A DNA stretch of 64,000 bases from Faecalibacterium prausnitzii (GTDB lineage: Bacteria; Bacillota; Clostridia; Oscillospirales; Ruminococcaceae), in NCBI RefSeq assembly GCF_019967995.1, contig NZ_CP065377.1, forward strand, positions 930,001-994,000. The letters run 5' to 3'. Below are positions 13,033 to 43,448 of this stretch, in pieces. Positions within the stretch are counted from its first letter, which is position 1. Every line of letters begins with the position of its first letter. The notes below the pieces were generated by a model. It did not search any database. It saw only the letters and a program-made list of their open reading frames with translations, and was not told the DNA's origin. The position numbers were made by a program, and so were the translations under genes.

Positions 13033-14064
13033 ATGGCTGTTAGAGTTGCTATCAATGGTTTTGGTCGTATTGGCCGTCTGGCTTTCCGTCAGATGTTTGA
13101 TGCTGAGGGTTACGAGGTCGTCGCAATCAACGACCTGACCAGCCCCAAGATGCTGGCTCACCTGCTGAAGTACGACACTGCTCAGGGTTCCTTCTGCGGC
13201 AAGATCGGCGAAGGCAAGCACACTGTCGAGGCTACCGAGGATTCCATCATCGTCGACGGCAAGGAGATCAAGATCTATGCTGTTAAGGACGCAAAGGATG
13301 CTCCCTGGGGCGAGCTGAACGTTGATGTCGTTCTGGAGTGCACCGGCTTCTACACCAGCAAGGAGAAGAGCATGGCTCACATCCAGGCTGGCGCAAAGAA
13401 GGTCGTCATCTCTGCTCCCGCAGGCAACGACCTGAAGACCATCGTCTTCTCCGTCAACGAGAAGACCCTGTCCGCTGAGGATCAGGTCATCTCCGCTGCT
13501 TCCTGCACCACCAACTGCCTGGCTCCCATGGCCGACACCCTGAACAAGACCTATCCCATCGTTTCCGGCATCATGACCACTGTTCATGCTTACACCGGCG
13601 ACCAGATGATCCTGGATGGTCCTCAGCGCAAGGGCGACCTGCGCCGTGCACGTGCTGGCGCACAGAACATCGTCCCCAACAGCACCGGTGCTGCCAAGGC
13701 CATCGGCCTGGTCATCCCTGAGCTGAACGGCAAGCTGATCGGCTCTGCTCAGCGTGTGCCTGTTCCCACCGGCTCCACCACCATCCTGGTTGCTGTCGTC
13801 AAGGGCAAGGACGTCACCAAGGAGTCCATCAACGCTGCAATGAAGGCTGCTTCCTCTGAGTCCTTCGGCTACAACGAGGATCAGATCGTCTCTTCTGACG
13901 TCATCGGCATGCGTTACGGCTCTCTGTTCGACGCTACCCAGACCATGGTCGCTAAGATCGACGACGACACCTATCAGGTTCAGGTCGTGTCCTGGTACGA
14001 CAACGAGAACTCCTACACCTCTCAGATGGTCCGTACCATTAAGTACTTCGCTGAGAACTGCTAA
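13033..14064 (+). CDS. gap: Glyceraldehyde-3-phosphate dehydrogenase, type I
   Basis: 343 residues. The NAD-binding start is [16 protein letters not shown], the catalytic cysteine is C158 ([12 protein letters not shown]), and its partner is H185 ([11 protein letters not shown]). The C-terminal [13 protein letters not shown] motif is intact. Codon use is strongly biased, as for a highly expressed gene. It is the attachment target of the 29-kb element. If recombination occurs in the core proposed here, the last 20 codons and the stop are supplied by the element, and a displaced chromosomal copy of the 3' end lies at 43341-43448. The enzyme stays complete after insertion. Confidence 0.98.
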
Positions 14065-14068
14065 TCAC
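13961..14068 (+). repeat. Left attachment-site repeat (attL) in the 3' end of gap
   Basis: This 108-base direct repeat matches 43341-43448 at 105 positions. The first 43 bases (13961-14003) are identical. The three differences (14004, 14019, 14055) are all synonymous third positions. Within the identical part, GTCGT-N8-ACGAC (13984-14001) is an inverted repeat of the kind used as a tyrosine-recombinase core. Confidence 0.92.
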
Positions 14069-14120
14069 GCAGCTGCGTTAAAAATTGGATGATTTGTCGG
14101 CCGGAGTTTGTCTTGCTCAA

Positions 14121-14150
14121 CTACGAACAAGCCTGATTTGGTACGACAAC
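14121..14150 (+). repeat. Accessory recombinase-site candidate, left end
   Basis: TACGAACAAG and GTACGACAAC are direct half-repeats about 20 bases apart. The same paired motif is at 43237-43265 and, weaker, at 43512-43541. The second half matches the gap core GGTACGACAA. Probably arm-type binding sites; inference from repetition only. Confidence 0.5.
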
Positions 14151-14167
14151 CATTTCTAACGATTTTT

Positions 14168-14212
14168 CACCCTTTCTTTTGTGGTCCGCCATGAAGGAAA
14201 GGGTGTTTTTTT
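14168..14212 (+). terminator. Element-supplied terminator for gap, abutting the integrase start
   Basis: CACCCTTTC...GAAAGGGTG followed by TTTTTTT, ending at the base before the integrase ATG. It mirrors the displaced native gap terminator at 43557-43600 (ACACCCTTCC...GGAAGGGTGT), so the element carries its own replacement. It would also limit read-through from gap into the integrase gene. Confidence 0.85.
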
Positions 14213-15124
14213 ATGTGTTTGAAAGATCTCCGCGATGAATTTATCTATGACTGTGAATGCCGCCATCTGGCTAAAGGCTCTGTGCGCAATTATAAGGCTG
14301 CGACCCGGTTTTTGTTGGAATATTTGGAGCTGAAGCAGATCACCGAGCTGGAAGACGTCCGTCCCCGTCACATCCGTGACCTGATGAAGGAGAAGCAGGA
14401 CGCGGGCAGCACGTCCCGCTATATCAACGACCTGCTCAAGGTGTGGCGCACATGGTTCAACTATCTGGTCAATGAGGGCTATCTGGAGGAGCGGGACAAT
14501 CCGGCCAAAAAGGTAAAGTGCCTCCGTCAGCCCCGGACGATCATTGATACCTTTACAGCGACTGAGATGAAGCGGATGATCCAGTTCTACGACGGCAAGG
14601 ACTTTCTGGACGTGCGGAACAAGACCATCATCATGCTGCTGTTTGATACCGGGATGCGCTGCAACGAAATGATCCTGATGGAGCCGGAGGATATCAAGCA
14701 GGACTATATTTTGGTAAAGCACGGCAAGGGCAGCAAGGAACGGGTCGTGCCCAAGTCGCCCGCACTCTCCAAGCAGCTCGTCAAGTATTGCACACTCCGG
14801 GATGGTTACCTGAAGGAGCACCCTACTCGCTACAAGAACCTCTTCCCCAGCAAAAACGGCAAGCCCATGACCGATGAGGCCGTAGCACGGATATTGAAGC
14901 ATGCCGCAAAAGAGGTGGGGATCTCGTCCTCGGTGCGGGTCAGTCCTCATACCTGCCGCCATACCTTCGCACAGATGCAGCTGAAGAACGGTCTGGACCT
15001 GTATAGTGTCTCCCGCCTAATGGGGCATGTCAATATCATGATCACCCAGCGCTACCTGTTGGGCATCAAGGATAAGGACATTGTGGATCGTGGCACCCAG
15101 ACCAGCCCCTTGATGAACCTGTAA
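14213..15124 (+). CDS. int: Tyrosine recombinase (integrase) of the gap-inserted element
   Basis: 303 residues. The N-terminal SAM-like core-binding domain covers about 1-100 (LKDLRDEFIYDCECRHLAKGS). The catalytic domain has arginine in LFDTGMRCNEMI, lysine in VKHGKGSKERVVP, the HxxR box in SPHTCRHTFAQ, histidine in SRLMGHVNIM and tyrosine in ITQRYLLGI, so the set is complete. It lies 145 bases inside attL, the usual position for an integrase. No ribosome site is obvious because the terminator runs to the ATG, so expression may be low in the integrated state. Confidence 0.95.
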   Translation: MCLKDLRDEFIYDCECRHLAKGSVRNYKAATRFLLEYLELKQITELEDVRPRHIRDLMKEKQDAGSTSRYINDLLKVWRTWFNYLVNEGYLEERDNPAKKVKCLRQPRTIIDTFTATEMKRMIQFYDGKDFLDVRNKTIIMLLFDTGMRCNEMILMEPEDIKQDYILVKHGKGSKERVVPKSPALSKQLVKYCTLRDGYLKEHPTRYKNLFPSKNGKPMTDEAVARILKHAAKEVGISSSVRVSPHTCRHTFAQMQLKNGLDLYSVSRLMGHVNIMITQRYLLGIKDKDIVDRGTQTSPLMNL

Positions 15125-15143
15125 AAATTAAATCATACACTTC

Positions 15144-15181
15144 AAGAGTAGTTCCGCCGGGTGGTGGGACTGCTCTTTTTT
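15144..15181 (+). terminator. Terminator after the integrase gene
   Basis: AGAGTAGTTCC and GGGACTGCTCT pair (with G-U pairs) and lead into TTTTTT. Confidence 0.7.
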
Positions 15182-15239
15182 GGTAGATGAGCATAAAAAT
15201 ACCCCCATTGCTCTGTGGAGAGAGAAATGGAGGGTGGAA

Positions 15240-15869
15240 TCAATCTACGTCGGTATCCAGACTTTTAAGAAGCTCGGTAAAACTTGGCGTGGCATACTTA
15301 TCGTTGAAGCTACTTGAACAGGACAGACTCATAAGCGCCTGATTCAGTTGAAAGATAGCCTTGTCGTTGGAATGCTTCAGCAGGAAGATGAACTCACGCC
15401 GCAAATCACCCTCAAACTGATGAGCCCTTATGGAAAGCAGAAGCTGTACAGCGACTTCCTGCCCAAGAGGGTTTAGCTGGTCGAATTCGCACAGGGAGTT
15501 GTATCTTTTATCGCCTGGATCAAACGGAAAATGGTCGTTCTTTTCGGTATTGCACGGGTTGTCTTCATCGGTGTTCTGCAGATTGGTAAATCCATCATCG
15601 GAGGAATGGCGCGCAAGGTATTCGTTGCGTGATGGATAATGCTCACCTAAGAGCTCAGTCATGCTGGGCACAGCGGAGCCCATTAATATTCCAACGGATA
15701 CGTCCAGAGATTGTGCGATTTGCTCCAGCAGATTGAGGTCGAACCGTTCGCTGTCGCGATTCAACATGTTATATAAAGTGGTATAGGGGATATCAACCCT
15801 GCGGCTGAGTTCTTTGATGGAAATCCCCCTAGCTTCCGCAACGGCCTTAATGTTCTGGCAGACGCTCAT
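15240..15869 (-). CDS. XRE-family transcriptional regulator of the element
   Basis: 209 residues. The N-terminal helix-turn-helix (about 5-60) reads IKAVAEARGISIKELSRRVD then IPYTTLYNML. The long C-terminal part (about 75-209) matches nothing I know and is probably a sensing or oligomerisation domain. AGAAAGGAG precedes ATG 15869. It is divergent from the operon promoter at 16011 and has its own consensus promoter at 15901-15929, the layout of a phage- or ICE-type repressor. ATTGACA words recur across the shared region and could be operators. Confidence 0.8.
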   Translation of the reverse strand: MSVCQNIKAVAEARGISIKELSRRVDIPYTTLYNMLNRDSERFDLNLLEQIAQSLDVSVGILMGSAVPSMTELLGEHYPSRNEYLARHSSDDGFTNLQNTDEDNPCNTEKNDHFPFDPGDKRYNSLCEFDQLNPLGQEVAVQLLLSIRAHQFEGDLRREFIFLLKHSNDKAIFQLNQALMSLSCSSSFNDKYATPSFTELLKSLDTDVD

Positions 15870-17527: not shown

Positions 17528-19327
17528 ATGACTGAAGAAACAAATGTTACCACTACACCCATGCAGCCTGTATCTCTGCCCAAAAACAAACCCAACGGTG
17601 CATTGTCTATCTTGGCGCTATTTGGGGATCTTACCGACATTGGCTTGGATCCCTGTGAAGCGTTGCCGCGCGTACCTGCTCCGATGACGAAACCGCAAGC
17701 AGCCGAACAGGAAATGATTTGGTCACTGGATGATATCCACCGGGAAGAAATGCTATTTGAACGGGCTTTACCGGCTTTGCCAGAGGACACACGCTACGTC
17801 TCACAGGCCATCGGCGACGTTATACAAAGCTGGGGAGTTGGCCGCTATGTGATCGATGCGGGTACAGGCGCGGGCAAAACAACTGCAATCATTGACTTAT
17901 TGAAGAAGAATATGACGAGCTGCCCAAGATTCAATGTGGAAGATCGAAAGCGAATTCTATATCTTTGCAACCGGAAAACGCTGTGGGAGCAAATCGTCCA
18001 AGCCATTTTAGCGGATGGAGTCGAAAGAGATTTCCGAGATACAGACTTGATTAGATTGACGATGATCGAGTGTCTGAGTTTTGAGTTTGTAGAGGTGCAA
18101 ACCTATCAAAAGCTCCAGAAGGACTATCAGGAAAACCCGGAGAAGACGCTGGAGCACATCAAGAACAGCTATACCTATATTGTCTGTGATGAGGCGCATT
18201 TCTTTGTGAACGACGCAAAATTCAATCATAAGACAAATCTGGCCTATCAGTGCATTGAGCAGCTGGTCCCGTGCAAAACGGTCATCTACATGAGCGCTAC
18301 AATGGATCTGTTGATTCGGAAGTGGAAAGAGGAGGGCACGCTTCTTCCAGAAAACTACTACAGTATCCCCAGAAGAAAAACGTGTGCCTCAGAAATTCGA
18401 TTTTATTACCGCGATGTCGAGCGCAAAGCTCTTTTGGACTCCATTCCACCGGATGAAAAAGTGATTGTTTTTGTATCGAGTCGTGCAACGCTTGAAAAAA
18501 TGAAGCTGATATACGGTGATGCGGCTTCCTACTACTGCTCTGACCACAACAAGTCCGGCGCGATGGATACGCTGTATGATTGTGTCCGGCACGGAAAGCT
18601 TTTGAAGCGGATCCTTTTTACTACGACTGTCTTCTATAACGGTGTTGACATCAAAGACGAGACGGTCAAACATATTTTCATTGAGCAGTGGTTGCCCATG
18701 GAGGTGATTCAGGAGATCGGCAGAAAGCGGCCAGTGAGTGAGCAGGATATCTTTAAACTCTATCTGCGCGGCAAGGGAAAACGGGAGCTGGAGATGTGCC
18801 TTAAAGAGGCTACCTATAATCTTGAACCAGCGCTGTGTTATCGTGCAGGCGGGGAGACTTGGGAGAAGTTTTTGGCAGCTCCGGATGTAAACGAGCGAAT
18901 CGGTGAGGAGTCCACTTTGTACTACGATCATCGAACAAAAGAGTACCATATCAACGAGATGAAAGAGATGTTCTTCCAGTATCAGAAAAGTGTCGCACTG
19001 AAAATGTTACAGGATGGATATCATGACGCAATTCTTAGTATGATTCGGAGCGATTTGGGTGGTCCTGTTCCAGAGTATAAGTCGGATAATGTGTCAGCCT
19101 ACATTGCGGAACATCTCAATGAGCCTATGCTAAAGGATGAGCTAAAGGCAGCACTGATTCGCGTCCTAAATATTGTTCCGGCTAAAGGACGCTCTAGCCA
19201 AGAGACGATCGGCAAATTGCTTTTAAATCGAGAGCTTCAAAAATACAGGGTAGAGATTATAACAACAAGAGAAACAGCAGGGAAATGGCGGTTTAAGACA
19301 GTCTGGATGCTTGTGGAACTGAAATAA
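17528..19327 (+). CDS. Superfamily 2 helicase-like ATPase of the element
   Basis: 599 residues. Walker A GTGAGKTT is at 112-119, DEAH at 221-224 (YIVCDEAHFF) and motif III SAT at 256-258. A second RecA-like half has VIVFVSSRATLEKM, FTTTVFYNGVDIKD and QEIGRKRP, which resembles motif VI. The first 90 residues and the last 180 are not a known accessory domain to me. Such proteins act on DNA or RNA with ATP hydrolysis. In this element a role in replication, mobilisation or defence are all possible. AGGAG lies about 14 bases before ATG. Confidence 0.75.
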   Translation: MTEETNVTTTPMQPVSLPKNKPNGALSILALFGDLTDIGLDPCEALPRVPAPMTKPQAAEQEMIWSLDDIHREEMLFERALPALPEDTRYVSQAIGDVIQSWGVGRYVIDAGTGAGKTTAIIDLLKKNMTSCPRFNVEDRKRILYLCNRKTLWEQIVQAILADGVERDFRDTDLIRLTMIECLSFEFVEVQTYQKLQKDYQENPEKTLEHIKNSYTYIVCDEAHFFVNDAKFNHKTNLAYQCIEQLVPCKTVIYMSATMDLLIRKWKEEGTLLPENYYSIPRRKTCASEIRFYYRDVERKALLDSIPPDEKVIVFVSSRATLEKMKLIYGDAASYYCSDHNKSGAMDTLYDCVRHGKLLKRILFTTTVFYNGVDIKDETVKHIFIEQWLPMEVIQEIGRKRPVSEQDIFKLYLRGKGKRELEMCLKEATYNLEPALCYRAGGETWEKFLAAPDVNERIGEESTLYYDHRTKEYHINEMKEMFFQYQKSVALKMLQDGYHDAILSMIRSDLGGPVPEYKSDNVSAYIAEHLNEPMLKDELKAALIRVLNIVPAKGRSSQETIGKLLLNRELQKYRVEIITTRETAGKWRFKTVWMLVELK

Positions 19328-22320: not shown

Positions 22321-22521
22321 TCACTCAGTCAGGCCCAACAGATAATCGGTCGACATCTGATAGAATTGGGCAAGTTGGATCAGATGGGGGATTTCGGGAC
22401 ATTTATCGTGCTCCCATGCGTAGACTGCCCGGCGGGTCACTCCCATAGTTCGTGCAAGATCGGTCTGGGTATAGCCGTGCGTCAGGCGCAGGTACTGCAG
22501 GCGTTCTGATATAATGGTCAT
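22321..22521 (-). CDS. Small XRE-family helix-turn-helix regulator
   Basis: 66 residues, essentially only an HTH_3 domain: LQYLRLTHGYTQTDLARTMG then VTRRAVYAWEHDKCPEIPHL, ending STDYLLGLTE. AAAGGAGAAC precedes ATG 22521. It lies downstream of the SprT-like gene on the same strand. Probably a second element regulator. Confidence 0.8.
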   Translation of the reverse strand: MTIISERLQYLRLTHGYTQTDLARTMGVTRRAVYAWEHDKCPEIPHLIQLAQFYQMSTDYLLGLTE

Positions 22522-22643
22522 GGCGTTCTCCTTTATAAATAATGGGCGTCCTCTCACAGCCCAGCGAATCTCTGTCTTTACGAGTGCACTTTTAAAACCG
22601 GCACTACTCTCACTCGTGCCCTCGCTCTCTGTCTTGCGATGAT

Positions 22644-23306
22644 TTAGTCGGCCTTCACGAACAGCTCCATGCAGTCTGCGCAGATGACCCGCACTTCCTT
22701 GGTGCTCCGGATGATGGTACCGCACTTGGGACATACCCACCGCCGGGTGCTGCTCTTGGCTTTGAGAGGTCTCGGTGCTCCAGTCTGACTGCTGCCGGGT
22801 GCCTTGCTGCCTGCTCCGGTGCCTGCCATATCCGACCATGCCAGCCGCTCACCCATCTGGATGTCCTGCCAGCCTTGGAAGATGATGAAGTCCAGCAGCT
22901 CTTCGGACGGACTTGTGATGGTCCAGCCATACTTTTCGTGGTGGTCGACGGTCAGCCCGTGTGTCTCTGCCTGCTCCTTAAAGCGCCGGTTATGATAGAC
23001 CCCGTTGTTGCTGGTGTCCTTGATGCTGGTCTCCATGCAGTACTCGTGCACCATCTCATGCAGCAGAGTAGAAGCGGTCTCCTCGATGGGACGGTCAAGG
23101 GTAGCCGACGAAATATTGATCTCGTACTTGTTCTCGCCGCCTGCCTGCCAGACCTTGGAACAGGTGATGTGACCGTATGCGGACGGGGTCTTTTTCAGGC
23201 TGATGATGGGCTCAGGCAGCTTGCCTGCAAAGTAGTGCTTGTTGAGCTCGCGGAACATCTTTTCCAGCTGACCAGCAGCGCGGGAGGTTTTGACAGTCTG
23301 TTTCAT
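22644..23306 (-). CDS. SprT-like zinc metallopeptidase-domain protein
   Basis: 220 residues from ATG 23306 (AAAGGT site). The zinc-binding HEMVH is at 83-87 within STLLHEMVHEYCME, and a third-ligand candidate histidine lies in GVYHNRRFKEQ. A C-terminal zinc ribbon has WVCPKCG and VICADCM. SprT/Spartan-like domains in mobile elements are thought to cut protein bound to DNA. In this element it could process a replication or transfer intermediate, but that is inference. Confidence 0.82.
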   Translation of the reverse strand: MKQTVKTSRAAGQLEKMFRELNKHYFAGKLPEPIISLKKTPSAYGHITCSKVWQAGGENKYEINISSATLDRPIEETASTLLHEMVHEYCMETSIKDTSNNGVYHNRRFKEQAETHGLTVDHHEKYGWTITSPSEELLDFIIFQGWQDIQMGERLAWSDMAGTGAGSKAPGSSQTGAPRPLKAKSSTRRWVCPKCGTIIRSTKEVRVICADCMELFVKAD

Positions 23307-23435
23307 GATTTTTCGAACCTTTCTATTGATAAAAAGGGCCGGGACAGGTATAATATTGGTGTAGCCCGCCCCGGCGGGTGTTGTGGGCTCTGTACAGCGC
23401 AAACTTTGGTCGGGGAGCGCTGTATGGGGCTCTTT

Positions 23436-25884: not shown

Positions 25885-25944
25885 TGAATAACCATTGCTG
25901 AAGTTACTTAAAAACCGATAATAGGCTCGAAAGGAATATAATTT

Positions 25945-27618: not shown

Positions 27619-27639
27619 GGAATAGGGGAGAAAATAAAA

Positions 27640-28950: not shown

Positions 28951-28969
28951 GAACTAAGGGGTGATGGCT

Positions 28970-29935: not shown

Positions 29936-29956
29936 AAAATTTTATAGGATGGAATT

Positions 29957-30646: not shown

Positions 30647-30653
30647 AGAAACC

Positions 30654-31811: not shown

Positions 31812-31823
31812 TGTAGGAGGAAT

Positions 31824-32864: not shown

Positions 32865-32870
32865 AATCAT

Positions 32871-34130
32871 ATGGTTAAAAATAAAAAACTTATTAAAACC
32901 TGCACAACGCTCGCAATATTTACGTCCTCTTTCGATATTTTTGCAATAGTCAATATTGGTGGATTTAACTTTAGATTTTGTCAGTTGATTATTTTGCCAG
33001 TCATTACACTTTATTTAATGAATGTAATGGCATCAAGGCGTTTCCTTGCGCCAAAAGGGTTTCGATATTTACTTATTTGGATTGTTTTGCAGCTTGTATT
33101 TTGCTTCCGGTCCCCAAGTTTGAAAAATGCATTTGGATACTTTATATGGTTGATTTTTAACGGTATAACGGTTCTGTCTACGTGCTATTTTTGTGAAAAG
33201 GCATATTCAAGAAAATGGCTGTTGAGAACTTATTTGCATTCATTTGTGTTTATGTCTGTCGTTGGGTTGATGCAACTTTTTCTTTATGCAATAGGCGTTG
33301 ATTTCTATGTGGCTCAAAATTGGACTGGCCGGTTGGCACGAATTAATGGATTTTCTTATGAACCGTCTTATTATGCAACATACCTGATAATGGGTTTCGT
33401 TACTTATGCTAGTCTCCTTATTGCGAACGAGTATGTATGGATATCTAAGACGAAATTGCAACAAGGTTTTGTTTGGGTAACAATCGCACTGATTTTGTCA
33501 TCCTCCCGTATGGGATGGTTGATGATAGCAGTTTTTATTGTGTATGAATTATCGTATCATTCCTTAAAAAAGGCATTGACAGGTGGGCGTATAAAAAAGA
33601 AAACATTCTCTTTTATAGCTTTAGCATTGCTTGTAGTGGCTTTTGCTGCTTTCGCCGTAGTGTACATTTTAAAATTGGATCTTTCAATGTTTGCCGCCGG
33701 GTTAGGAATTGGCGGTGGCTCTACGCATTCATCAGGACCAAGAATTGAAGGATTAACAAAATGTATTGAGATTTTCAAAAAAAGTCCTATCTGGGGATAT
33801 AGTCTTGGTGGGGTAGACCCGATGATTGCTAGGTACGATGGAGAAGTATATTCAACGCTACACAATGGCGCGGCGATGAGTGTGGTTGGCGAAATTCTAG
33901 TTGCAAGTGGTGTCATCGGGCTGATTCCGTTTATTTTTTATTTTTTAGCGCTTCTTTTTAGAAGAACAAATTCGGCCAATATTACATACTCGAATGTAAT
34001 AAGGGCATTGAGAGTTGCAATGGTATTTGAACTGGCAATTCTTTGTTTTAATCAAAATATATTGCGCCCATATACTTGGTGGCATATTGCCATTTTAAGT
34101 GCAGAAATGAAATCTACACAAGGAGATTAA
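32871..34130 (+). CDS. Wzy-type polysaccharide polymerase (O-antigen ligase-like membrane protein)
   Basis: 419 residues with about ten or eleven membrane spans and one large outside loop containing RLARINGFSYEPSYYATYLI, the Wzy/WaaL-like loop. Later it has SSRMGWLMIAVFIV and WGYSLGGVDP. It joins lipid-linked repeat units on the outer membrane face. Sequence is very AT-rich. It starts 6 bases after the previous stop with a weak ribosome site, suggesting coupling. Confidence 0.8.
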   Translation: MVKNKKLIKTCTTLAIFTSSFDIFAIVNIGGFNFRFCQLIILPVITLYLMNVMASRRFLAPKGFRYLLIWIVLQLVFCFRSPSLKNAFGYFIWLIFNGITVLSTCYFCEKAYSRKWLLRTYLHSFVFMSVVGLMQLFLYAIGVDFYVAQNWTGRLARINGFSYEPSYYATYLIMGFVTYASLLIANEYVWISKTKLQQGFVWVTIALILSSSRMGWLMIAVFIVYELSYHSLKKALTGGRIKKKTFSFIALALLVVAFAAFAVVYILKLDLSMFAAGLGIGGGSTHSSGPRIEGLTKCIEIFKKSPIWGYSLGGVDPMIARYDGEVYSTLHNGAAMSVVGEILVASGVIGLIPFIFYFLALLFRRTNSANITYSNVIRALRVAMVFELAILCFNQNILRPYTWWHIAILSAEMKSTQGD

Positions 34131-34132
34131 AT

Positions 34133-35254
34133 ATGTCAAAGACAAAAATAATTGCTATGTATTTGCCACAGTATCATGAGATCCCAGAAAATTCAAAATT
34201 TTGGGGAGAGGGCTTCACAGATTGGGTAAGTGTGAAAAAGGCAGAGCCCCTGTATAAAGGCCACAAGCAGCCTAAGGTGCCACAAAATGAAAAATATTAC
34301 GATTTGTCGAAAAAAGAAAACGTGGCATGGCAAGCGAAAATTGCAAGAAAATACGGAGTGGACGGTTTTGGGATTTATCATTATTGGTTCTCCAGCAAAA
34401 AACAGCTTCTAACAAAACCTGCTGAAATAATTTTGGAAAATAAAGATATCGATATTCCTTTTTTCTTTGCGTGGGATAATATTAGCTGGAAAAGAACATG
34501 GAGCAAATTAAAGGGAAATGACTGGTCTCCGATTGTCGATGATAAAGCTCAGCGAAAAAAGGATGAACCGGAAATTTTGATAGAATATGTTCTTGGCGAT
34601 AAAGAAGAATGGAAGAAACATTTTGATTATTTGCTTCCATACTTCAAGGATAGCAGGTATATCAAAAAAGAAGGAAAGCCTGTCTTTGTGATATACAATT
34701 TTGATGAAAAGATTATTTCAATGGGAAAGTATTGGGATGATCTTGCGCAGGAAAATGGACTGAAAGGTGTTGAAGTTATTTACCGCTATGATCCAATAAA
34801 AATGATTCCAAGTAATCAGAAAACATTCACTTATGAGCCGCCATTCTCTGGATGGGGGACAACTGTAACACGAGTGATTTCTAAAATAGAAAGAGTATTA
34901 GGAAAAAACGGTCTTCAGATATACGAATATGATGGGGTCTGGAAAAAAATAATAGAAAATGCAAAGAGAAACAAGGATTCAAACATAATGTCTGGTGCGT
35001 TTGTTGAGTATGATGATACTCCACGGCGTGGAAAAAAAGGAAAAGTAGTCACAGGAGCGACACCACAAAAATTTGAAAAGTACATGGCAGAGCTGCTGCG
35101 AATTTCTAGCCGGCAGAACAAAGATTTCATTTTCCTTACGGCATGGAATGAATGGGGCGAGGGTGCGTATCTGGAACCAGATACCGAAAACGGTTATGCC
35201 TATTTGGAAGCTTTGAAACGTGCAGTTGAAAGCGTGAATGCAGAAAATGCTTGA
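34133..35254 (+). CDS. WbsX-type glycan-synthesis protein (GH99-like domain)
   Basis: 373 residues from ATG 34133, chosen for AAGGAG 8 bases upstream. It opens [20 protein letters not shown] and has [15 protein letters not shown] and [17 protein letters not shown], the hallmarks of the WbsX family found in O-antigen and capsule loci. It is thought to act as a glycosyl transferase or hydrolase in surface glycan assembly; the reaction is not settled. It overlaps the next gene by 17 bases. Confidence 0.88.
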
Positions 35255-35900
35255 TCATACTATTTTAAGGGATTTTGTAAAACAAATTCGGCTGAACCAT
35301 TTTAAGCGCAGTTGGCGGAAAGCAAATGCTGAAAATGATACCGTTCCAATGAATCACTTCCCGGCAGAATTGGTGAGCGTTGGAAAATGTTCTTATGGTG
35401 AGCTGAATGTTGTTACCTTCAACCGTTGCTCGAAGCTAAAAATTGGTTCTTATTGCTCAATTGCACAGCATGTGTACTTTATGCTTGATGTAGAACATCG
35501 TGTGAATACAGTTTCTACATATCCATACAAAGCAAAATGTTTGAGGCTGGGCGATGAAGCCTTTTCTAAAGGCGATATCGTTGTAGGCGATGATGTTTGG
35601 ATTGGCTACGGTGCAACTATTATGTCGGGGGCTCATATCGGGCAAGGGGCGGTGGTTGCGGCAGGTGCAGTAGTAACAAAGGATGTGCCGCCGTATGCAA
35701 TTGTTGGTGGTGTGCCTGCTAAGGTGATTAAGTATCGCTTTGAGACAGAAATTATAAAGGAGTTGTTGAGGATAGATTATAGCAAATTGAATGAGAAAAT
35801 GATAAAAGAGCATATTGATGAGTTGTATACAGATTTAAAGAGTGTCAAGCAGATCAAGTGGTTTCCTCAAAGGGAGGAAAAGAATTTTGATAGGAAGTGA
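35238..35900 (+). CDS. Left-handed beta-helix acetyltransferase (CatB/NodL-type)
   Basis: 220 residues. Hexapeptide turns are visible: [33 protein letters not shown] and [20 protein letters not shown], ending [16 protein letters not shown]. The catalytic histidine is probably in [14 protein letters not shown]- or N-acetylation of a glycan sugar from acetyl-CoA is expected. It could acetylate the amino sugar made by the aminotransferase at 36821. Start ATG 35238 or 35247. Confidence 0.88.
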
Positions 35901-35906
35901 AATAGA

Positions 35907-36824
35907 ATGCGCCCTGTAATTTCCCTGTGCTTACCAACAAATGGGGTCATTGAATGGGTCTTTCCGGTATTGGATAGCATTTATAATCAAAACGTAGAGA
36001 ATGATTTGTTCGAAGTAATAGTAACCAATAACGGTAATAATCATCAGTTCGATATGATGATGCAGGAATATGCTGAAAAGCATGATAATCTTATCTATAA
36101 AAAAACTGATGCCTATATGTTCCATAATCAATTGGAGGCTTTAAAATTAGCGTCAGGCATTTATTTGAAGTTTGTGAATCATAGGGGAATCTTCCAAGAT
36201 GGCTCATTAAAGAAAATGCTTAACATCGTTTTGGAGAACTTAGATGATAAACCAGTTATTTATTTTGGAAATGGCGTTTTTAAAAATGATGAATACATTC
36301 TAAATGACTTTGATTCGTTTGTTGGGACACTGAAGCGCTATGTTTCATGGACAACTGGTGTAGGAATCTGGAAAAGTGATTATGAAAAGATTCCAGATGA
36401 TGTTCCGATTGATAAGATTTCGCCCCATTCGTGCATTTTGTTTTCAGAACGCAATAAGAAGAGATATTTAATAGAGAATTTTACGTTTTCTAAGGATATT
36501 GACACCAATGCGAGTAAAAAAGGTACATATGACTTGTTTAGAGCTTTTGCAGTTGAAGAGGTCACAATAGCACTTAATTTGCTTATCGATGGAGACATAA
36601 CAGCTAGAACTTTCAAGGCTGTAAAGAAGGATTATGAAGCATTCGTTTCGGAACTGTATTATATGTATATTATAAAAAAGGAACCATGTTCTTATGATTT
36701 GAGTGGGTTTGACGATTCGATGGGGATTTTCTTTACCAAAACAGAAATATATATTGGGATTTTGAGTTTGATTTTTAAGAAGATGCTAAGAAAAGTAACA
36801 AAAATTGTGGAGGTAAAAAAATGA
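35907..36824 (+). CDS. Family 2-like glycosyltransferase with atypical metal motif
   Basis: 305 residues. The N-terminus VISLCLPTNGVIEWVFPVLD followed by FEVIVTNNGNN matches the GT-A nucleotide-binding part. Where the DxD motif is expected the sequence reads LKFVNHRGIF, so the usual acidic pair is missing. It may use another residue or have lost activity. A hydrophobic C-terminal helix is present. It overlaps the next gene by 4 bases (ATGA). Confidence 0.75.
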   Translation: MRPVISLCLPTNGVIEWVFPVLDSIYNQNVENDLFEVIVTNNGNNHQFDMMMQEYAEKHDNLIYKKTDAYMFHNQLEALKLASGIYLKFVNHRGIFQDGSLKKMLNIVLENLDDKPVIYFGNGVFKNDEYILNDFDSFVGTLKRYVSWTTGVGIWKSDYEKIPDDVPIDKISPHSCILFSERNKKRYLIENFTFSKDIDTNASKKGTYDLFRAFAVEEVTIALNLLIDGDITARTFKAVKKDYEAFVSELYYMYIIKKEPCSYDLSGFDDSMGIFFTKTEIYIGILSLIFKKMLRKVTKIVEVKK

Positions 36825-37960
36825 TTCACTTTAATGTTCCGCCGTTTGTTGGTACAGAATTCAAGTATATGCAGGAGGCGGTTAACAACCATAAGATTTG
36901 TGGTGATGGTCCGTTTACAAAAAAATGCAATGAATGGCTTGAAAAACGTTTTAACGCAAAGAAAGTAATGCTTACTACAAGTGGCTCAACTGCACTTGAT
37001 ATGGCGGCTTTGTTATGCGGTATTAAGCCGGGCGATGAGGTTATTCTTCCAAGTTTTACATTTTCAAGTACAGCAAACTCTTTTGTCTTAGCCGGAGCAA
37101 CACTTGTATTCGTAGATGTTCGACCGGACACAATGAATATTGATGAAACAAAAATTGAGGCTGCCATTACGGATAAAACAAAGGTGATTTGTCCGGTTCA
37201 CTATGCTGGTGTCGCCTGTGAAATGGACACAATCATGGACATTGCCAAAAGACATCACTTGATGGTTGTGGAAGATGCCGCGCAGGGTGTTATGAGTACT
37301 TACAAGGGAAAAGCTTTGGGTACAATCGGCGATTTTGGTTGCTATTCTTTCCATGAAACAAAAAACTATTCTATGGGTGAAGGTGGCGCAATTGTAATTA
37401 ACAATGCTGCCTATATTGAAAAAGCAGAAATTTTGCGTGAAAAAGGAACGAATCGCTCGCAATTTTTCCGCGGACAGGTCGCTAAATATAATTGGGTAGA
37501 TTTCGGTGACAGTTATCTTCAGAGTGATTTGAACGCTGCATATCTTTGGGCACAACTCGAAGTGGCAGATCAAATCAATGAGAATCGACTTGAAACATGG
37601 AATAAATATTACACCGCCTTTAAGCCACTGGAGGAAAAAGGAATAGTACAGCTACCCATTATTCCAGAGGGCTGCGTCCACAACGCGCATATGTTTTACT
37701 TGAAGACGAAGAACTTGGAAATTAGACAGGCATATATCAAATTCATGAAAGAAAATGATATCTTGTGTGTGTTCCATTATGTTCCTCTACATAGTGCCCC
37801 GGCAGGCCTTAAATTCGGTCGTTTTGATGGCGTGGATGAAAATACAACTGCAGATAGCGATCGTCTGGTTAGGCTGCCTATGTACTATAACATAAAAAGT
37901 GATGACCTGAACAAGGTAATCGAAAAGACATTGGAATTCTTTAATAGTGAAACAAAGTAA
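36821..37960 (+). CDS. wecE: WecE-type dTDP-4-amino-4,6-dideoxygalactose transaminase
   Basis: 379 residues. It aligns by eye through its length with enterobacterial WecE/RffA: NVPPFVGTEFKYMQEAV, LCGIKPGDEVILPSFTFSST, VDVRPDTMNIDETKIEAAIT, VEDAAQGVMSTYKGKALGTI, the PLP-lysine region CYSFHETKNYSMGEGGA and REKGTNRSQFFRGQVAKY. Known role: PLP-dependent amination of dTDP-4-keto-6-deoxyglucose, giving a Fuc4N precursor. No rmlA or rmlB gene is in the locus, so the dTDP sugar must come from elsewhere. Confidence 0.92.
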   Translation: MIHFNVPPFVGTEFKYMQEAVNNHKICGDGPFTKKCNEWLEKRFNAKKVMLTTSGSTALDMAALLCGIKPGDEVILPSFTFSSTANSFVLAGATLVFVDVRPDTMNIDETKIEAAITDKTKVICPVHYAGVACEMDTIMDIAKRHHLMVVEDAAQGVMSTYKGKALGTIGDFGCYSFHETKNYSMGEGGAIVINNAAYIEKAEILREKGTNRSQFFRGQVAKYNWVDFGDSYLQSDLNAAYLWAQLEVADQINENRLETWNKYYTAFKPLEEKGIVQLPIIPEGCVHNAHMFYLKTKNLEIRQAYIKFMKENDILCVFHYVPLHSAPAGLKFGRFDGVDENTTADSDRLVRLPMYYNIKSDDLNKVIEKTLEFFNSETK

Positions 37961-37987
37961 GATGCAGACATACTGGTGGATGGATCA

Positions 37988-39394
37988 ATGAATGATTATA
38001 AGTATCTGATAAAAAATATTGGAATCCTTACAATTAGCAACTTTGCTACGAAATTTTTATCTTTCTTCCTGCTTCCGTTGTACACAGGGGTCTTGTCGAC
38101 GGAGGAATATGGCACGTTCGATTTATACAGCACCACTATATCACTTCTTTATCCGATACTATCTATTTGTGTTTCTGACAGTGTGATTAGATTTTTGCTT
38201 GAACGAAATAAAGATAAAGATTCTGTAATTTCAATTAGTGCGAAATATGTAGTCATATCTATTGTTGCCTTTCTATTTTTGTTTGCTGTTAATGTAATTA
38301 CGAATACCGTTCCAGAATTGAATGCTTATAAGATACTTTTTGTTTTAGTGTATGTTGTTACAGTACTCAATTCATGGCTATCTGGTGTCGCAAGAGGTCA
38401 AGAAAGGATTAAGGATATATCACTTGCCAGCATCATTTCAAGCTTTGGCACAATTCTTCTAAACATTATATTTCTCGTGTGGATGAAATTTGGTATCGTA
38501 GGATATTTTTGGGCAACAATTCTAGGAACCAGTATGTCAATTATTTATTATGTCTATGTTACTAATATTTTTCATTCGATACATACGGCAACCAAGGACT
38601 ATAACCTTGATAAAGAAATGCGAAAATATGGCACGGGACTGATGGTTAACTCAATCAGCTGGTGGGTGAACAATTCCCTAGACAAGTATATGGTTTTGTA
38701 TATGTGTGGGATTGCCGCAAATGGATTGATCTCGGTAGCGTACAAGTTACCAACAGTTTTATCAACGATACAGAATTTATTTGAGCAAGCATGGGTTCTG
38801 TCTGCAGTAAAAAAATACAATAAGGAAGATGCTGACGGCTTTTTTGTTCGAACATATAATTTATATGGATTTATTATGGCTATAGCGGCATCTGCAATGA
38901 TAATGTTTACAAAAGTATTGTCAGCACTACTATTCAAAAAAGATTTTTATGAAGCTTGGTCAATGATTCCGTTTTTTTCTATAGCCGTGGCTTTCAGCGC
39001 GGCGGCTGGCTTTTGCGGTGGTGTTTTTGCTGCTCAAAAGCGAACGGATATCATTTCAAAAACAACTTTTATTGGAGCAATTGTAAACACGATACTAAAT
39101 GCAGTATTAATCTTTTCATTCGGAGTTATTGGCGGTGCGGTAGCTACGATGATTTCGAATGCGGTGGTTATGATTGTTAGATTGTTTTATGTGAAACAAC
39201 AGATGAATTTTCAAATACGAGTAGTGCGTGATGCTTTGACGTATAGTATATTGCTTTTTCAGACGCTAATTCTGCTACTATGTAATTCCAAAATACAGTA
39301 TGTGCTTCAACTGCTTCTACTTGTTCTTATCGTGCTATTGTACAATAAAGAAGTATTAGCTGTCTTGAAGAAAGTGGAGGTGCATAAAATATGA
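37988..39394 (+). CDS. Wzx-type oligosaccharide flippase
   Basis: 468 residues from ATG 37988 (GGTGGATGG upstream; a GTG at 37976 is the alternative). About 14 membrane spans. The start NIGILTISNFATKFLSFFLL followed by PLYTGVLSTEEYGTFDLY is typical of MATE-like polysaccharide exporters. It moves lipid-linked repeat units across the membrane for the Wzy-type polymerase. It overlaps the next gene by 4 bases. Confidence 0.92.
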   Translation: MNDYKYLIKNIGILTISNFATKFLSFFLLPLYTGVLSTEEYGTFDLYSTTISLLYPILSICVSDSVIRFLLERNKDKDSVISISAKYVVISIVAFLFLFAVNVITNTVPELNAYKILFVLVYVVTVLNSWLSGVARGQERIKDISLASIISSFGTILLNIIFLVWMKFGIVGYFWATILGTSMSIIYYVYVTNIFHSIHTATKDYNLDKEMRKYGTGLMVNSISWWVNNSLDKYMVLYMCGIAANGLISVAYKLPTVLSTIQNLFEQAWVLSAVKKYNKEDADGFFVRTYNLYGFIMAIAASAMIMFTKVLSALLFKKDFYEAWSMIPFFSIAVAFSAAAGFCGGVFAAQKRTDIISKTTFIGAIVNTILNAVLIFSFGVIGGAVATMISNAVVMIVRLFYVKQQMNFQIRVVRDALTYSILLFQTLILLLCNSKIQYVLQLLLLVLIVLLYNKEVLAVLKKVEVHKI

Positions 39395-40494
39395 GGTCGC
39401 TTTTTGTATGCAATACGCCATATCAGTTATTCAATGTGATGAATCTGGCGCTCAATGACGTTCAAGGCACAAGGCTGGTTTCGGATTTGTTTATTGTTGC
39501 TAGATTTAGAGACGCAAAAAAAGTATACGATAGGGTAATAGCTGAACATACTTTTGAAAGTGTTTATCTGATAGATCCACGGAGCGGAGATACTTTTATC
39601 AAGGAATGTCGTGATAGTATTTTGATTTCGTTGGAGAAGAAAATTAAGAAATATCAAATTGACTCTTATGACTTCCTTGAAAAAAAATATGACCAAGTTT
39701 TTATTGCAGATGAAATGCCTTTTGGATTGTTGATGTGCCAATTTTATAAAAGTGCGTCTGTTTGGATATATGAAGATGGTTACCCATACTACTATAAAAA
39801 TTTTTGGCAAGACTTATGTAGAGGACGTAAACAAAAAATTTTGAGCCTTTTTAATAGAGGGCTATCGACTATTCATCCGAAGGCTTTCTTTGTAAACAAT
39901 GCGGAAATGTGCCAATCAAAGGTTGCAGAGAAGACTATTCAACTTCCAAAATGGAATGATCAAAACCCGGCTTTTCCTGCCGTTTGCAGATTGTTCGCTT
40001 TTGACTCGCAATCAATGGTTTCACAAAAAAAGGTCATTTTTCTGGAACGTCCCTTTGAAGAATGTCCCAAGTACAATGGCTTGTCTCCAGAAAAACTATT
40101 AATGGATCTTGACTTAGTCGAGGATTCGTTAGTGAGAATACACCCCCGGAGTGGAAGAAAATATAATGAGGTCTTGGTAGATTATGGCGATAATATGTGG
40201 GAATTGGAGTGCTTGTCCAATATAACGAATGAGCATATTCTTGTTGGCGATTGTTCGAATGCTCAGTTTTCTCCGAAAATATTAGCAAATAAAGAACCAT
40301 ATTTGATTTTTGCTTATCGTCTTTTTTACAGTTATCATGACTTGGAAGACCCGAATAATTATGAGAAACAAATTGATCGGATTAGAAAGGCATATAGCCG
40401 AAAGGATAAGATTCTTATACCAAAGAACGTAGAGGAACTTAGGAATGCGTTGACTTGGATTCTCACAAAGGGGAGTGATGAGATTATAGATTGA
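39391..40494 (+). CDS. GT52-like (sialyltransferase-type) glycosyltransferase
   Basis: 367 residues. SLFVCNTPYQLFNVMNLAL at the N-terminus and SVWIYEDGYPYYY mid-protein resemble the GT52 family, which includes CMP-sialic-acid-dependent and other transferases. RIHPRSGRK near residue 250 may be the nucleotide-phosphate contact. Two CMP-sugar synthetase-like genes follow directly, which supports use of a CMP-activated acidic sugar. Assignment by motif recall, so moderate. Confidence 0.55.
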   Translation: MRSLFVCNTPYQLFNVMNLALNDVQGTRLVSDLFIVARFRDAKKVYDRVIAEHTFESVYLIDPRSGDTFIKECRDSILISLEKKIKKYQIDSYDFLEKKYDQVFIADEMPFGLLMCQFYKSASVWIYEDGYPYYYKNFWQDLCRGRKQKILSLFNRGLSTIHPKAFFVNNAEMCQSKVAEKTIQLPKWNDQNPAFPAVCRLFAFDSQSMVSQKKVIFLERPFEECPKYNGLSPEKLLMDLDLVEDSLVRIHPRSGRKYNEVLVDYGDNMWELECLSNITNEHILVGDCSNAQFSPKILANKEPYLIFAYRLFYSYHDLEDPNNYEKQIDRIRKAYSRKDKILIPKNVEELRNALTWILTKGSDEIID

Positions 40495-40544
40495 AACACA
40501 TGATTTATAGGTCATATTTATAAGAAATATTTGGAGGTAATTTT

Positions 40545-41252
40545 ATGAGTATTACAGCAATTATTCCTGTACGTGAAGGTAGCCGCAGATTAAAAAATAA
40601 GAATATTGCACCTTTTGCGGGAACGAATCTTTTAATCAACAAGATTAACCAATTGAAACAGGTGGATGAGATTACGGATATTGTCGTGTCCTCTGATTCC
40701 GATTTGATGCTTGCGATGGCTTCTTCTCAGGGAGTAAAAACACATAAGCGTGCCCCTGAATTTTGTGATGAGAAAACCAAAACATTTGGTGAGGTCGTAG
40801 CGCATATATGTGAGAGTGTTCCGGGTAATGACATTCTTTGGGCTACTTGCACAGCACCATTGGTCTTTCCAAAACACTATAGAGAAGCGGTCGCACTTTA
40901 CTACAAGGCATTGGAGCAGGGATATGATTCTCTGGTTTCAATGGAAGAGTTTAAACGGTATTTGTGGGATGATAATGGCCCCGTCAATTATGAACTAGGA
41001 ATTAAACATGTCCCTTCCCAGCAGCTTCCGCCACTGTATTTTGTGACTGATGGCATTTTACTTGCTCCGAGAAAAAAAATGATCGAGTGGAAATATTTCC
41101 ATGGGCACAATCCTTATCGCTACATCTTAGACAAAAGAACAAGTATCGATATTGATGATGGGCTGGACTTAGCATGTGCGCGTGCTTGGTTGGATATGGA
41201 TGAATCCGTTTCGCAGATTGACCCGTACATTGTGGGGGGGGGCAACATGTAA
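40545..41252 (+). CDS. CMP-sugar synthetase-like cytidylyltransferase (first)
   Basis: 235 residues. The NeuA/KdsB-type N-terminus AIIPVREGSRRLKNKNIAPF is followed by TDIVVSSDSD, a triphosphate and sugar contact stretch WATCTAPLVFP and the late DIDDGLDLACA. It activates an acidic or other sugar with CTP. TTTGGAGGT precedes ATG. The gene ends in a run of nine G (41234-41242) just before the stop, coding VGGGNM. No NeuB or NeuC homologue is nearby, so the sugar is unknown. Confidence 0.82.
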   Translation: MSITAIIPVREGSRRLKNKNIAPFAGTNLLINKINQLKQVDEITDIVVSSDSDLMLAMASSQGVKTHKRAPEFCDEKTKTFGEVVAHICESVPGNDILWATCTAPLVFPKHYREAVALYYKALEQGYDSLVSMEEFKRYLWDDNGPVNYELGIKHVPSQQLPPLYFVTDGILLAPRKKMIEWKYFHGHNPYRYILDKRTSIDIDDGLDLACARAWLDMDESVSQIDPYIVGGGNM

Positions 41253-41306
41253 CTGCTTCCTTTTGAGTGTGGCTGATTGTGCTGACACCGAAAAGGAGGT
41301 GGCAGC

Positions 41307-41990
41307 ATGAAAACAGCATGTTTCATACCGATTAAAGCGAATTCGGAAAGAGTTCCAGGTAAAAACTTACGCGTATTGAATGGGAAGAAGCTGTACGAAT
41401 ACATATGCGAACATGTAAAAGCGGCAAATGTGTTTGATGATGTTTATATTGATACCAACAGTCAAGAAATATCAGAGTATGCAGTAAAAATGGGCTTTCA
41501 TATCATCGAAAGAAAACCGGAACTTGCAACGAACACGGCAAACGGTAATGATTTGCTGGTATATCATTGCGAAAAATTTCCTGAGTATAATTATTATTTT
41601 CAGCTTTTTGCTACTGCTCCTTATATGCAACCTGAAACAATAAAAGAATGCTATAATACGCTGATCAGTAGCGAAGAGTTTGATTCTTGCTTTACGGCAC
41701 TAGAAAATCATAGTTTCTATTGGTTCGCCAACACGCCGATCAATTACAGACCGGGTATTTTACCTAGGAGTCAGGATATGCTCCCGGTAATTGAAGAAAC
41801 TACAGGGTTATATGGCATCTCTAAAGATAGCTTGGTAAGGTATCGGTGCCGCATTGGGAGGAAACCATACATGCACTATGTTAGTAAGTTCGAAGCTGTT
41901 GACATAAATACGGAAGAGGATTTAAGGGTTGCCGAGCATATTGGAAAAGTCATATTTGGATACGGAAGTAATGAAGTTGGTGAAGATTAA
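41307..41990 (+). CDS. CMP-sugar synthetase-like cytidylyltransferase (second)
   Basis: 227 residues: FIPIKANSERVPGKNLRVLN, then DDVYIDTNSQEISEYA, LLVYHCEKFPEYNYYFQLFA and FEAVDINTEEDLRVAE. Same family as the gene before it but clearly divergent. AAAGGAGG lies 7 bases before ATG 41307. Two different synthetases side by side suggest two activated sugars, or one enzyme acting in a related step. Confidence 0.82.
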   Translation: MKTACFIPIKANSERVPGKNLRVLNGKKLYEYICEHVKAANVFDDVYIDTNSQEISEYAVKMGFHIIERKPELATNTANGNDLLVYHCEKFPEYNYYFQLFATAPYMQPETIKECYNTLISSEEFDSCFTALENHSFYWFANTPINYRPGILPRSQDMLPVIEETTGLYGISKDSLVRYRCRIGRKPYMHYVSKFEAVDINTEEDLRVAEHIGKVIFGYGSNEVGED

Positions 41991-42014
41991 GTCTCTTGTT
42001 ATTGCTACGGTTGC

Positions 42015-42491
42015 TACATGAAGGAACACGACGAGCTGATGAACAACACCGTGGTTACTACTGTCATGCCCTACTTTGGCCTGTATAAGGCTAAGAATGG
42101 CTGCCGTATCGGTGGTGAGCAAAGCGGACATATCATTTTCTCTAAGTATGCCAGTACTGGTGACGGCATCCTGACCAGTCTGAAGATGATGGAAGTCATG
42201 CTGGCCAAGAAGAAGCCGATGAGTGAACTGGCATCACCGCTGAAGATTTATCCCCAGGTGCTGGAAAAGGTCCGTGTCACTGATAAAAAGGCTGCACAGA
42301 ATGATCCGGCTGTTCAGGAAGCAGTGAAGGCAGTCTCCGAGGCCCTAGGTGATATAGGATGTATCCTTGTCCGCGAATCTGGCACGGAGCCTGTTGTTCG
42401 TGTCATGGTAGAGGCACCTGACCACGATATCTGCCAGAAGTATGTGTCTCAGGTTGTGGAAGTTATCAAGAACAAGGGCTACGCTGTCTAA
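42015..42491 (+). pseudogene. glmM: Truncated phosphoglucosamine mutase (glmM) copy with internal deletion
   Basis: The reading from about 42015 gives MKEHDELMNNTVVTTVMPYF then GLYKAKNGCRIGGEQSGHII, and ends with the phosphate-binding RESGTEPVVRVMVEA. This is the C-terminal third of GlmM. The catalytic TASHNP serine domain is absent. About 25 residues usual between FGLYKA and the GGEQSGH sugar loop are missing, though the frame is kept. No ribosome site precedes it. It is a non-functional fragment, probably carried in with the locus. Confidence 0.8.
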
Positions 42492-42545: not shown

Positions 42546-42577
42546 TATATTATAAATACTGAATGGAGGTGTCCCAT

Positions 42578-42913
42578 ATGCCCCGTCCCAAAGGAAGCAA
42601 GAACAAGCCCAAGACCGTAAAAGCAACTGTTGACTTTGCTGCGCAGCTCGTTGAAAAGCAGTCTGCAAGGGAAGTCGCTGCCGCCGAAATCGCATCTATC
42701 ACTGCTAATATCGACACTCTGAAAGCTGACCTGAAAACTAAGAAAGCAGAGCTAAAATCTATCGACAAGGAAATCACCAGAATCGAAGCCCAAAAGGTCA
42801 AGGCTGAAACCAAAGCAGCGGAATCGGCAAAGAAAGCCGAAGCCGAGGACGTACTGAAAAAGCTGTTAGCAAGTGGCGTGAGTGCAGACGAGATCCTCGC
42901 AAAACTGAAATAA
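42578..42913 (+). CDS. Small basic coiled-coil protein with AT-hook-like start
   Basis: 111 residues from ATG 42578 (AATGGAGGTG upstream). It starts MPRPKGSKNKPKTVKATVDF, where RPKGSKNK resembles an AT-hook-type minor-groove tail. A long charged coiled coil follows (IDTLKADLKTKKAELKSIDK), ending VLKKLLASGVSADEILAKLK. It has its own promoter and terminator. Probably nucleoid- or DNA-associated; last gene inside the element. Confidence 0.65.
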   Translation: MPRPKGSKNKPKTVKATVDFAAQLVEKQSAREVAAAEIASITANIDTLKADLKTKKAELKSIDKEITRIEAQKVKAETKAAESAKKAEAEDVLKKLLASGVSADEILAKLK

Positions 42914-42937
42914 TCTTATCAAAAATCCAAAACCGTG

Positions 42938-42974
42938 TGGACGGAGTTACAAAATCCCATCCATACGGTTTTCT
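42938..42974 (+). terminator. Terminator of the coiled-coil protein gene
   Basis: AAAACCGT-GTGGA...TCCAT-ACGGTTTT followed by CT. Confidence 0.75.
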
Positions 42975-43202
42975 AATGGAATAATTGCTTCATATCAAAC
43001 AAAATGCATCCATTTCTCACTCCAAGCCTCAAAATCACTTCCGGTGAAATTTCAGCAAAAGAGACATCAGAGGAGCGCATCTGGGCAGAGCAAACGCCCC
43101 CGGCGGTGCTCCGGGCCCCGGACGCTCCGAACTATGTGTTCCGTGAAAATAGACTTTCCAATATGGGAAAAATGCATGCCGGATGTAAAATTGACGGAAA
43201 CC

Positions 43203-43231
43203 TTGCAAATGACGCTGAAACGTGATATAAT
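43203..43231 (+). promoter_or_regulatory. Outward-facing promoter at the right end of the element
   Basis: TTGCAA, 17-base spacer, TATAAT. When integrated it only reads into the gap remnant and its terminator. When the ends are joined in an excised circle it would read across attP towards the integrase gene. Confidence 0.6.
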
Positions 43232-43236
43232 CGTGG

Positions 43237-43265
43237 TACGAACAAGCCGGTTTTGGTACGACAAC
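43237..43265 (+). repeat. Accessory recombinase-site candidate, right end
   Basis: TACGAACAAGCC then GGTACGACAAC, matching 14122-14150 in sequence and spacing. Confidence 0.5.
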
Positions 43266-43340
43266 GGTATGCTGTAGTACTGTAACTGTTGTTTCGAAAT
43301 TATGAACGACTACAAAAAATGTGTGAAAATTTAGCGTAGC

Positions 43341-43448
43341 TACGACGACACCTATCAGGTTCAGGTCGTGTCCTGGTACGACAATGAGAACTCCTACACT
43401 TCTCAGATGGTCCGTACCATTAAGTACTTCGCTGAAAACTGCTAATCA
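43341..43448 (+). repeat. Right attachment-site repeat (attR): displaced 3' end of gap
   Basis: Encodes the last 34 GAPDH residues and stop, with no start or upstream coding part. It is 105/108 identical to 13961-14068. The GTCGT-N8-ACGAC core candidate is at 43364-43381. It marks the element-chromosome junction. Confidence 0.92.

Follow-up and report, generated by a model that had tools for sequence, protein, structure and literature searches.

The 3′ end of gap is duplicated on both sides of an integrase gene

The stretch of DNA analyzed here, referred to as the window, comprises 64,000 nucleotides of Faecalibacterium prausnitzii (contig NZ_CP065377.1, positions 930,001 to 994,000) inside one single-contig genome of 2.94 Mb, coded G000, and contains what is most probably a genomic island integrated into the 3′ end of gap, the gene for glyceraldehyde-3-phosphate dehydrogenase. 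Coordinates are window positions, and features lie on the + strand unless the − strand is indicated. The gap gene (13033–14064; Gp_dh_N/Gp_dh_C domains) is complete, and repeat comparison identified its final codons as the element-side tail (attL region, 13961–14064). A second copy of this tail (attR, 43342–43445) lies outside any gene and represents the displaced host 3′ end. The repeat measures 104 nt up to the gap stop codon, and its copies, which are 29,381 bp apart, differ at three positions; four further identical bases past the stop extend it to 108 nt (105 identical), and a lower-identity extension reaches 147 nt (87%). A repeat of this kind is far beyond chance. It had been described in an earlier note on this DNA and was recovered as such, including the synonymous nature of all three differences, which codon comparison bears out. 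An assembly error as its source is excluded, because the window lies on a single contig and second gap tails occur in 5 of 31 genomes of the genus.

Just inside the left copy, as that note had also reported, a complete gene (int, 14213–15124) starts 149 nt past the gap end and encodes a tyrosine recombinase of 303 aa (Int; Phage_integrase, E = 6.8e-33; alignment A1). Residues R149, K175, H246, R249, H272 and Y281, which we take to be the catalytic R, K, H-x-x-R, H and Y, are invariant across 25 aligned rows, and as judged from this catalytic domain Int is a tyrosine recombinase integrase. XerD/XerA-type recombinases act in chromosome resolution. The closest solved relatives of Int by sequence are XerD and archaeal XerA/XerC-like recombinases (PDB 1a0p, 5hxy, 4a8e); Int shares with XerD/XerA a size of about 300 aa, is too short by length and Pfam span to hold an additional N-terminal arm-binding domain, and would differ from them in function, namely integration at gap instead of chromosome resolution.

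Sister elements and empty sites within Faecalibacterium

We compared 31 Faecalibacterium genomes, all of them species representatives. The gap-tail query matched 26 of the 31, and a second gap tail was present in five (G000, G003, G009, G017 and G029), in each case from query position 62–63 and 13–42 kb away. A close Int was encoded in four genomes: G000, G009 and G029 have an intact int (97–100% identity), whereas the G003 copy, at 85%, is interrupted by an internal stop. Remnants were observed in G013 (40 aa) and G017 (a 31-aa trace at 55%). The right end of the window element (43169–43341) is conserved beside different cargo, as the right ends of the G003, G009, G017 and G029 elements share 75–83% identity with it over 175–385 bp and carry unlike cargo.

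The earlier note had predicted that relatives would show empty sites with a single gap 3′ end, and this prediction was borne out for two sister elements: the right flank of G029 corresponds to the post-gap DNA of G014 over 2.5 kb (90.6%), and that of G009 over 1.74 kb (88.6%). By this comparison, the post-gap DNA of G014 is a natural empty site for the G009 and G029 elements. The G003 flank matched G008 over 1.8 kb at 76%, from 229 bp beyond the tail. For the window itself the prediction held over a short distance only: the displaced native gap downstream DNA with its terminator (43446–43600) is 84–88% identical to the post-gap DNA of four other species. An empty site holding G000's own right-neighbor genes was not found in the genus genomes. 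The gene next to the G000 right flank, a pyridoxal-phosphate-dependent decarboxylase, lies more than 300 kb from gap in the seven other single-contig genomes, and G000 is probably rearranged at its right flank. End repeats, a restored target gene and int at one end, the features expected of a genomic island, are all present, together with an empty site in relatives for the G009 and G029 elements and, for G000, over 155 bp.

An Int family behind gap across Clostridia

An Int-alignment scan covering one genome per species yielded 68 loci (coded L; L058 and L059 are the same genomes as G029 and G009). Among the 56 loci in which Int is at least 40% identical to the window's, gap lies directly upstream in 49 (L058 and L059 included) and a gene of another family, presumably yebC, in two; the remaining 12 loci (Int below 40%) have gap upstream in one case and neither gene in ten, and Int was not refound in the last. 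The gap-to-int distance is 131–230 bp in the 50 gap loci. Two gap types are targeted, one 75–100% identical to the window's (some being partial on their contig) and the other 38–47%. In an order-level sample of 247 genomes including G000 (requested completeness ≥90%; Int cut-off E ≤1e-60), Int was detected in nine genomes, six times behind gap, twice behind yebC and once, decayed, behind neither.

Second gap tails were observed in 16 of the 50 gap loci, and in 13 of the 28 whose available downstream sequence extends to 9.9 kb or more. The elements bounded by these tails span 1.9–10.3 kb, the upper end being set by the 10 kb of flank examined, and L075 carries two elements in tandem. An Int tree of 37 proteins, drawn from the window and those of the 50 gap loci with sufficiently long Int and gap, contains at least two changes of gap type on well-supported branches. 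In Gemmiger (L060 and L072), Int proteins only 61% and 47% identical to the window's lie behind gap genes 94% and 92% identical to the window's. Since integrases of this kind follow gap in many gut bacteria besides Faecalibacterium, gap seems to be a docking site for mobile DNA that has received little notice.

Among phage and plasmid records, no close Int was found: 577 phage and 3,833 plasmid records matched, all below 60% identity, and the best identities among the matches listed were 32% and 34%, respectively. The scan did return a 65-kb IMG/VR contig, L126, whose Int is 51% identical to the window's and is directly preceded by 44 gap-tail codons, site copies and a terminator. Searching the whole contig with a gap protein recovered only this tail (residues 292–335 of 336) and no gap gene. 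L126 is a phage, since it encodes tape measure, Dit, minor tail and head families as well as a portal, and its gap tail beside int is apparently an attP. The Int of the other virus contig in the scan, L127, has 26% identity.

Two further groups were noted. In L094, L096, L142 and L143, an Int side branch (37–43% identity) lies behind yebC-family genes at a similar distance, which suggests that this branch switched its target to yebC; because no second yebC tail was found in the available stretches of L094 and L096, it is solely the position of int that points to this target. In L087, L105 and L109, Int (45–48% identity) ends in GVLAHL or GVLENIR in place of TSPLMNL; gap is missing upstream of int in L087, and L105 and L109 are cut by the contig end. 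These three are perhaps a sub-family with another target.

Position of the crossover and candidate Int sites

The earlier note had considered a crossover probable inside a 43-bp block identical between the two window copies. This placement failed when we compared 21 pairs of gap tails (left versus right copy): in seven of them (L063, L064, L077, L085, L086, L090 and L093) the copies are unlike in this block, 28–30 of 36 positions being different, and the block was rejected as the crossover site. As likeness starts in these seven pairs only at +6 to +11 of TGGTACGACAAC and the copies are unlike to the left of that point, the crossover probably lies further right. In L067, the 43-bp block is retained and 4 nt beside it are missing. 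The crossover most likely occurred near 14005–14018, a stretch in which the window copies are identical and which is bounded by differences at 14004 and 14019. Across the 21 pairs, synonymous codon differences between the tails outnumber non-synonymous ones by 43 to 6 (stops excluded), as expected if each tail is a real gap end or was one until recently.

The core itself, TGGTACGACAAC (13993–14004), spans the gap codons W-Y-D-N and is a candidate Int core site. A related site is present in two direct copies, CTACGAACAA and TGGTACGACAAC (14117–14150), which are candidate Int accessory sites, and two further direct copies, TGGTACGAACAA and TGGTACGACAAC, lie within the right end (43234–43265). 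The motif GGTACGAN[AC]A occurs six times in the 64 kb, each time on the + strand (13994, 14140, 43235, 43255, 43375 and 43511). For a looser form of the site motif, 49 spacers gave 31 forward occurrences, compared to 1.5 in shuffled sequences, and 4 occurrences in reverse orientation.

The occurrence at 43511 belongs to a pair of Int-site-like repeats (43510–43541) in the displaced host flank; such repeats are likewise present behind gap in species without int and may be the scar of an older element insertion. Directly left of the displaced gap tail, L066, L077, L085, L090, L093, L101 and L118 carry a strong hairpin whose sequence is unrelated between loci; hairpins at this position were also recognized by eye in L067 and L075. 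Among 18 well-placed rows (L063, L067 and L089 excluded), seven fell in the lowest 5% of control folds, and the hairpin is absent from all five Faecalibacterium elements.

The gap terminator overlaps the start of int

Between gap and int, the window contains an intrinsic terminator (14168–14212) with a 17-pair stem and a T-run; its 3′ arm carries the likely Shine-Dalgarno sequence of int, and the int ATG directly follows the T-run. The fold of this region lies 5.6 standard deviations below those of shuffled sequences. A hairpin with a stem score ≥7 precedes int in 46 of 51 loci (the window and the 50 gap loci), with the gene starting 0–4 nt past its T-run, and in 43 of the 51 a Shine-Dalgarno-like motif is additionally found in the 3′ arm. 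Hairpin, T-run spacing and Shine-Dalgarno motif occur together in 41 of 49 loci (L058 and L059 excluded) compared to 6 of 808 control open reading frames (ORFs), a rough control based on the first ATG of any ORF of at least 150 aa on both strands, real gene or not. This overlap of terminator and int start codon goes beyond the earlier note, and the arrangement has been retained over great sequence divergence. A consensus scan listed no promoter between gap and int in the window. We infer that int, whose start adjoins the T-run of the terminator newly placed behind gap, would be made only from rare read-through of gap transcription.

A model for integration and its alternatives

Taken together, the duplicated tails, the conserved element ends and the empty sites of relatives support site-specific integration into the 3′ end of gap, and we hold it highly probable that the element is a site-specific integrative genomic island inserted by its XerD-like Int. 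These results are consistent with a model in which Int would recognize the gap codons W-Y-D-N-E and recombine the gap tail carried by the element (attP) with gap on the chromosome (attB). The crossover would most likely fall immediately right of these codons, and the core copies on either side may serve as accessory Int sites. The incoming element would bring the last ∼20 codons of gap, a stop codon and a terminator, and the old tail and terminator would end up at its right edge. gap would stay whole because of this supply, and the earlier proposal that the gene is left intact with codons and terminator from the element is thereby supported. As the element has neither a relaxase of the PF03432 or PF01076 families inside nor, among the proteins scanned, a clearly recognized phage structural gene, the island probably moves by borrowing, that is by transduction, mobilization or transformation.

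Several observations weigh against this model. The integration is deduced from comparing the sequences of species representatives. Three of the 56 loci with at least 40% Int identity lie behind neither gap nor yebC, and two are cut by the contig end. The stop codons are unlike in 4 of the 21 tail pairs, and the right copy of L118 has no stop. The crossover stretch is deduced from relatives and contains mismatches in three pairs (L066, L089 and L101), of which those in L066 and L101, L089 apart, would narrow it to 14005–14010. Allowing up to three mismatches, the 12-mer core has 25 forward matches in the window, mostly away from the ends, and the looser motif is present in only 23 of the 49 spacers. 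The G000 flank diverges from the empty sites after the 155 bp described above. Furthermore, no excisionase was among the assignments of the 10 proteins scanned.

We consider it unlikely that the element is a degenerate prophage derived from gap-targeting temperate phages such as L126. That this phage contig carries a gap tail and an Int of the family would fit such an origin, as would Cro/C1-type repressor-like proteins at 15240–15869 (− strand; HTH_26; phrog_8/3) and at 22321–22839. However, no structural or packaging family was recognized among the window proteins scanned, which represent part of the ORFs, apart from a weak match to phrog_332 (head-tail adaptor, E = 5e-4), nor in 30 Pfam-scanned proteins, likewise part of the ORFs, of small sister elements. 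The scanned window proteins thus point to an element without the structural and packaging genes of a prophage.

Markedly less probable is that the island is swapped by homologous recombination through its flanking gap tails, with Int as a relic without a present role. The tails are indeed highly alike and int is decayed in G003, G013 and G017, but it is intact in three other genomes, the right ends with their site copies have been retained, and the same junction is found in the elements of 1.9–10.3 kb with other cargo. Finally, that Int is a vertically inherited Xer-like gene lying behind gap incidentally, with the repeats as unrelated duplications, is barely conceivable: the gap–int order does extend across a wide range of Clostridia, but its presence is sporadic (close Int in 4 of 31 genus and 9 of 247 order genomes), the divergences of Int and gap disagree, the tree conflict and the rarity both being contrary to vertical descent, the DNA missing at empty sites is bounded by the tail repeats, and L126 has a gap tail and int without a gap gene.

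A wider proposal reaching beyond site-specific integration into gap can be put forward only tentatively, and we regard it as somewhat doubtful: gap would be a general Clostridia docking site for a dedicated integrase family of islands and phages, and each insertion would exchange the gap terminator for one whose 3′ arm is the int ribosome-binding site, so that the integrase would be made only when gap transcription leaks and the family would be coupled to glycolysis.

Precedents and implications

Among the papers listed in searches of the open-access literature, supplements excluded, none describes integration into gap, which may yet appear in the target-gene tables of island surveys; within this scope, the absence of a described gap-targeting family presumed in the earlier note stands. 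The word glyceraldehyde is absent from the main text of the Integrase-On-Demand paper (PMC12884075). The nearest precedent is the dusA-associated integrases and islands, which, according to Farrugia et al. 2015 (PMC4482086), target the 5′ end of dusA in Proteobacteria. They share with the gap family the use of one tyrosine-recombinase family per housekeeping gene, the occurrence as islands as well as prophages, a varied cargo beside an integrase that is the sole universal part, and the replacement of a gene end by island sequence. Unlike them, the gap family hits its target at the 3′ end, is found in Clostridia and has int fused to the new terminator. The family is not itself of the dusA type, its targets being gap and, apparently, yebC in the side branch.

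SGI1 and its relatives in trmE (PMC8409611, PMC6531882) likewise occupy the 3′ end of a conserved protein-coding gene, and SGI1 is mobilized by IncA/IncC plasmids; the five Faecalibacterium elements are without a relaxase of PF03432 or PF01076. Glycan loci as mobile cargo of gut bacteria are also described (PMC6907783) for capsule loci on integrative and conjugative elements (ICEs) of Bacteroidetes, which differ in having conjugation genes and in belonging to another phylum; the word glyceraldehyde is absent from the main text of that paper.

These findings would add gap to the integration hot spots of gut bacteria. They also define att sites exactly in genera for which genetic tools are scarce, and the integrase could serve there as an integration vector. 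The arrangement of terminator and start codon would make integrase output depend on a core metabolic gene, which is directly testable, and the gap islands are a possible route for the exchange of surface glycans in Faecalibacterium.

Cargo and other features of the element

Most of the right part of the element is occupied by an exopolysaccharide/capsule-type polysaccharide locus of + strand genes (25210–42491), in which Pfam recognized two sugar transferases, PGM, ManC, ManA, glycosyltransferases, Wzy_C, a flippase, an aminotransferase and two cytidylyltransferases, the short gene names being labels that we presume for these domains. In the sister elements of G003, G009, G017 and G029, 81 of the 95 ORFs of at least 120 aa were scanned; glycosyltransferases of group 1 were found in seven and of group 2 in five, sugar transferases in four and flippases in three, and each of the four elements encodes at least one sugar transferase. 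Outside Faecalibacterium, 30 proteins scanned with Pfam included helicases, small serine recombinases, WYL regulators, HNH nucleases, and transport and surface proteins. Capsule-type cargo, as proposed earlier, is therefore a feature of Faecalibacterium, with content differing between species, and does not extend to the wider Int family, where other cargo is carried.

Searches with the relaxase families PF03432 and PF01076, other relaxase families and coupling proteins being outside the search, gave no match inside the elements of G000, G003, G009, G017 and G029 and many elsewhere in these genomes. Within the reach of these two families, the elements would thus not be ICEs or integrative and mobilizable elements, which carry relaxase or conjugation genes inside.

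Further features of the window element include a terminator-like hairpin past int (15144–15177; consensus match only), a DEAD/ResIII helicase (17528–19327) with relatives within several sister elements, a 252-aa protein (22644–23402, − strand) that matches phrog_6361, a family without known function, and is 91–98% identical to proteins in the G009, G017 and G029 elements, and a small DNA-binding-type protein weakly similar to TacA1/NikA (23916–24164). Small serine-recombinase genes with a Resolvase N-terminal domain recur in other elements of the family (L060, L063, L066, L072, L081, L086, L093, L099 and others), and in L060, L072 and L081 such a gene is the last one before the right end. The right part of the window element also contains a phosphoglucomutase C-terminal fragment (42018–42491), homologs of which lie, from their coordinates, outside the element in G009 and G029 and after gap in the element-free G014. 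Upstream of the region discussed here, positions 1–9000 of the window have a GC content of 46–56%, below that of the remaining left flank, and may be another island.

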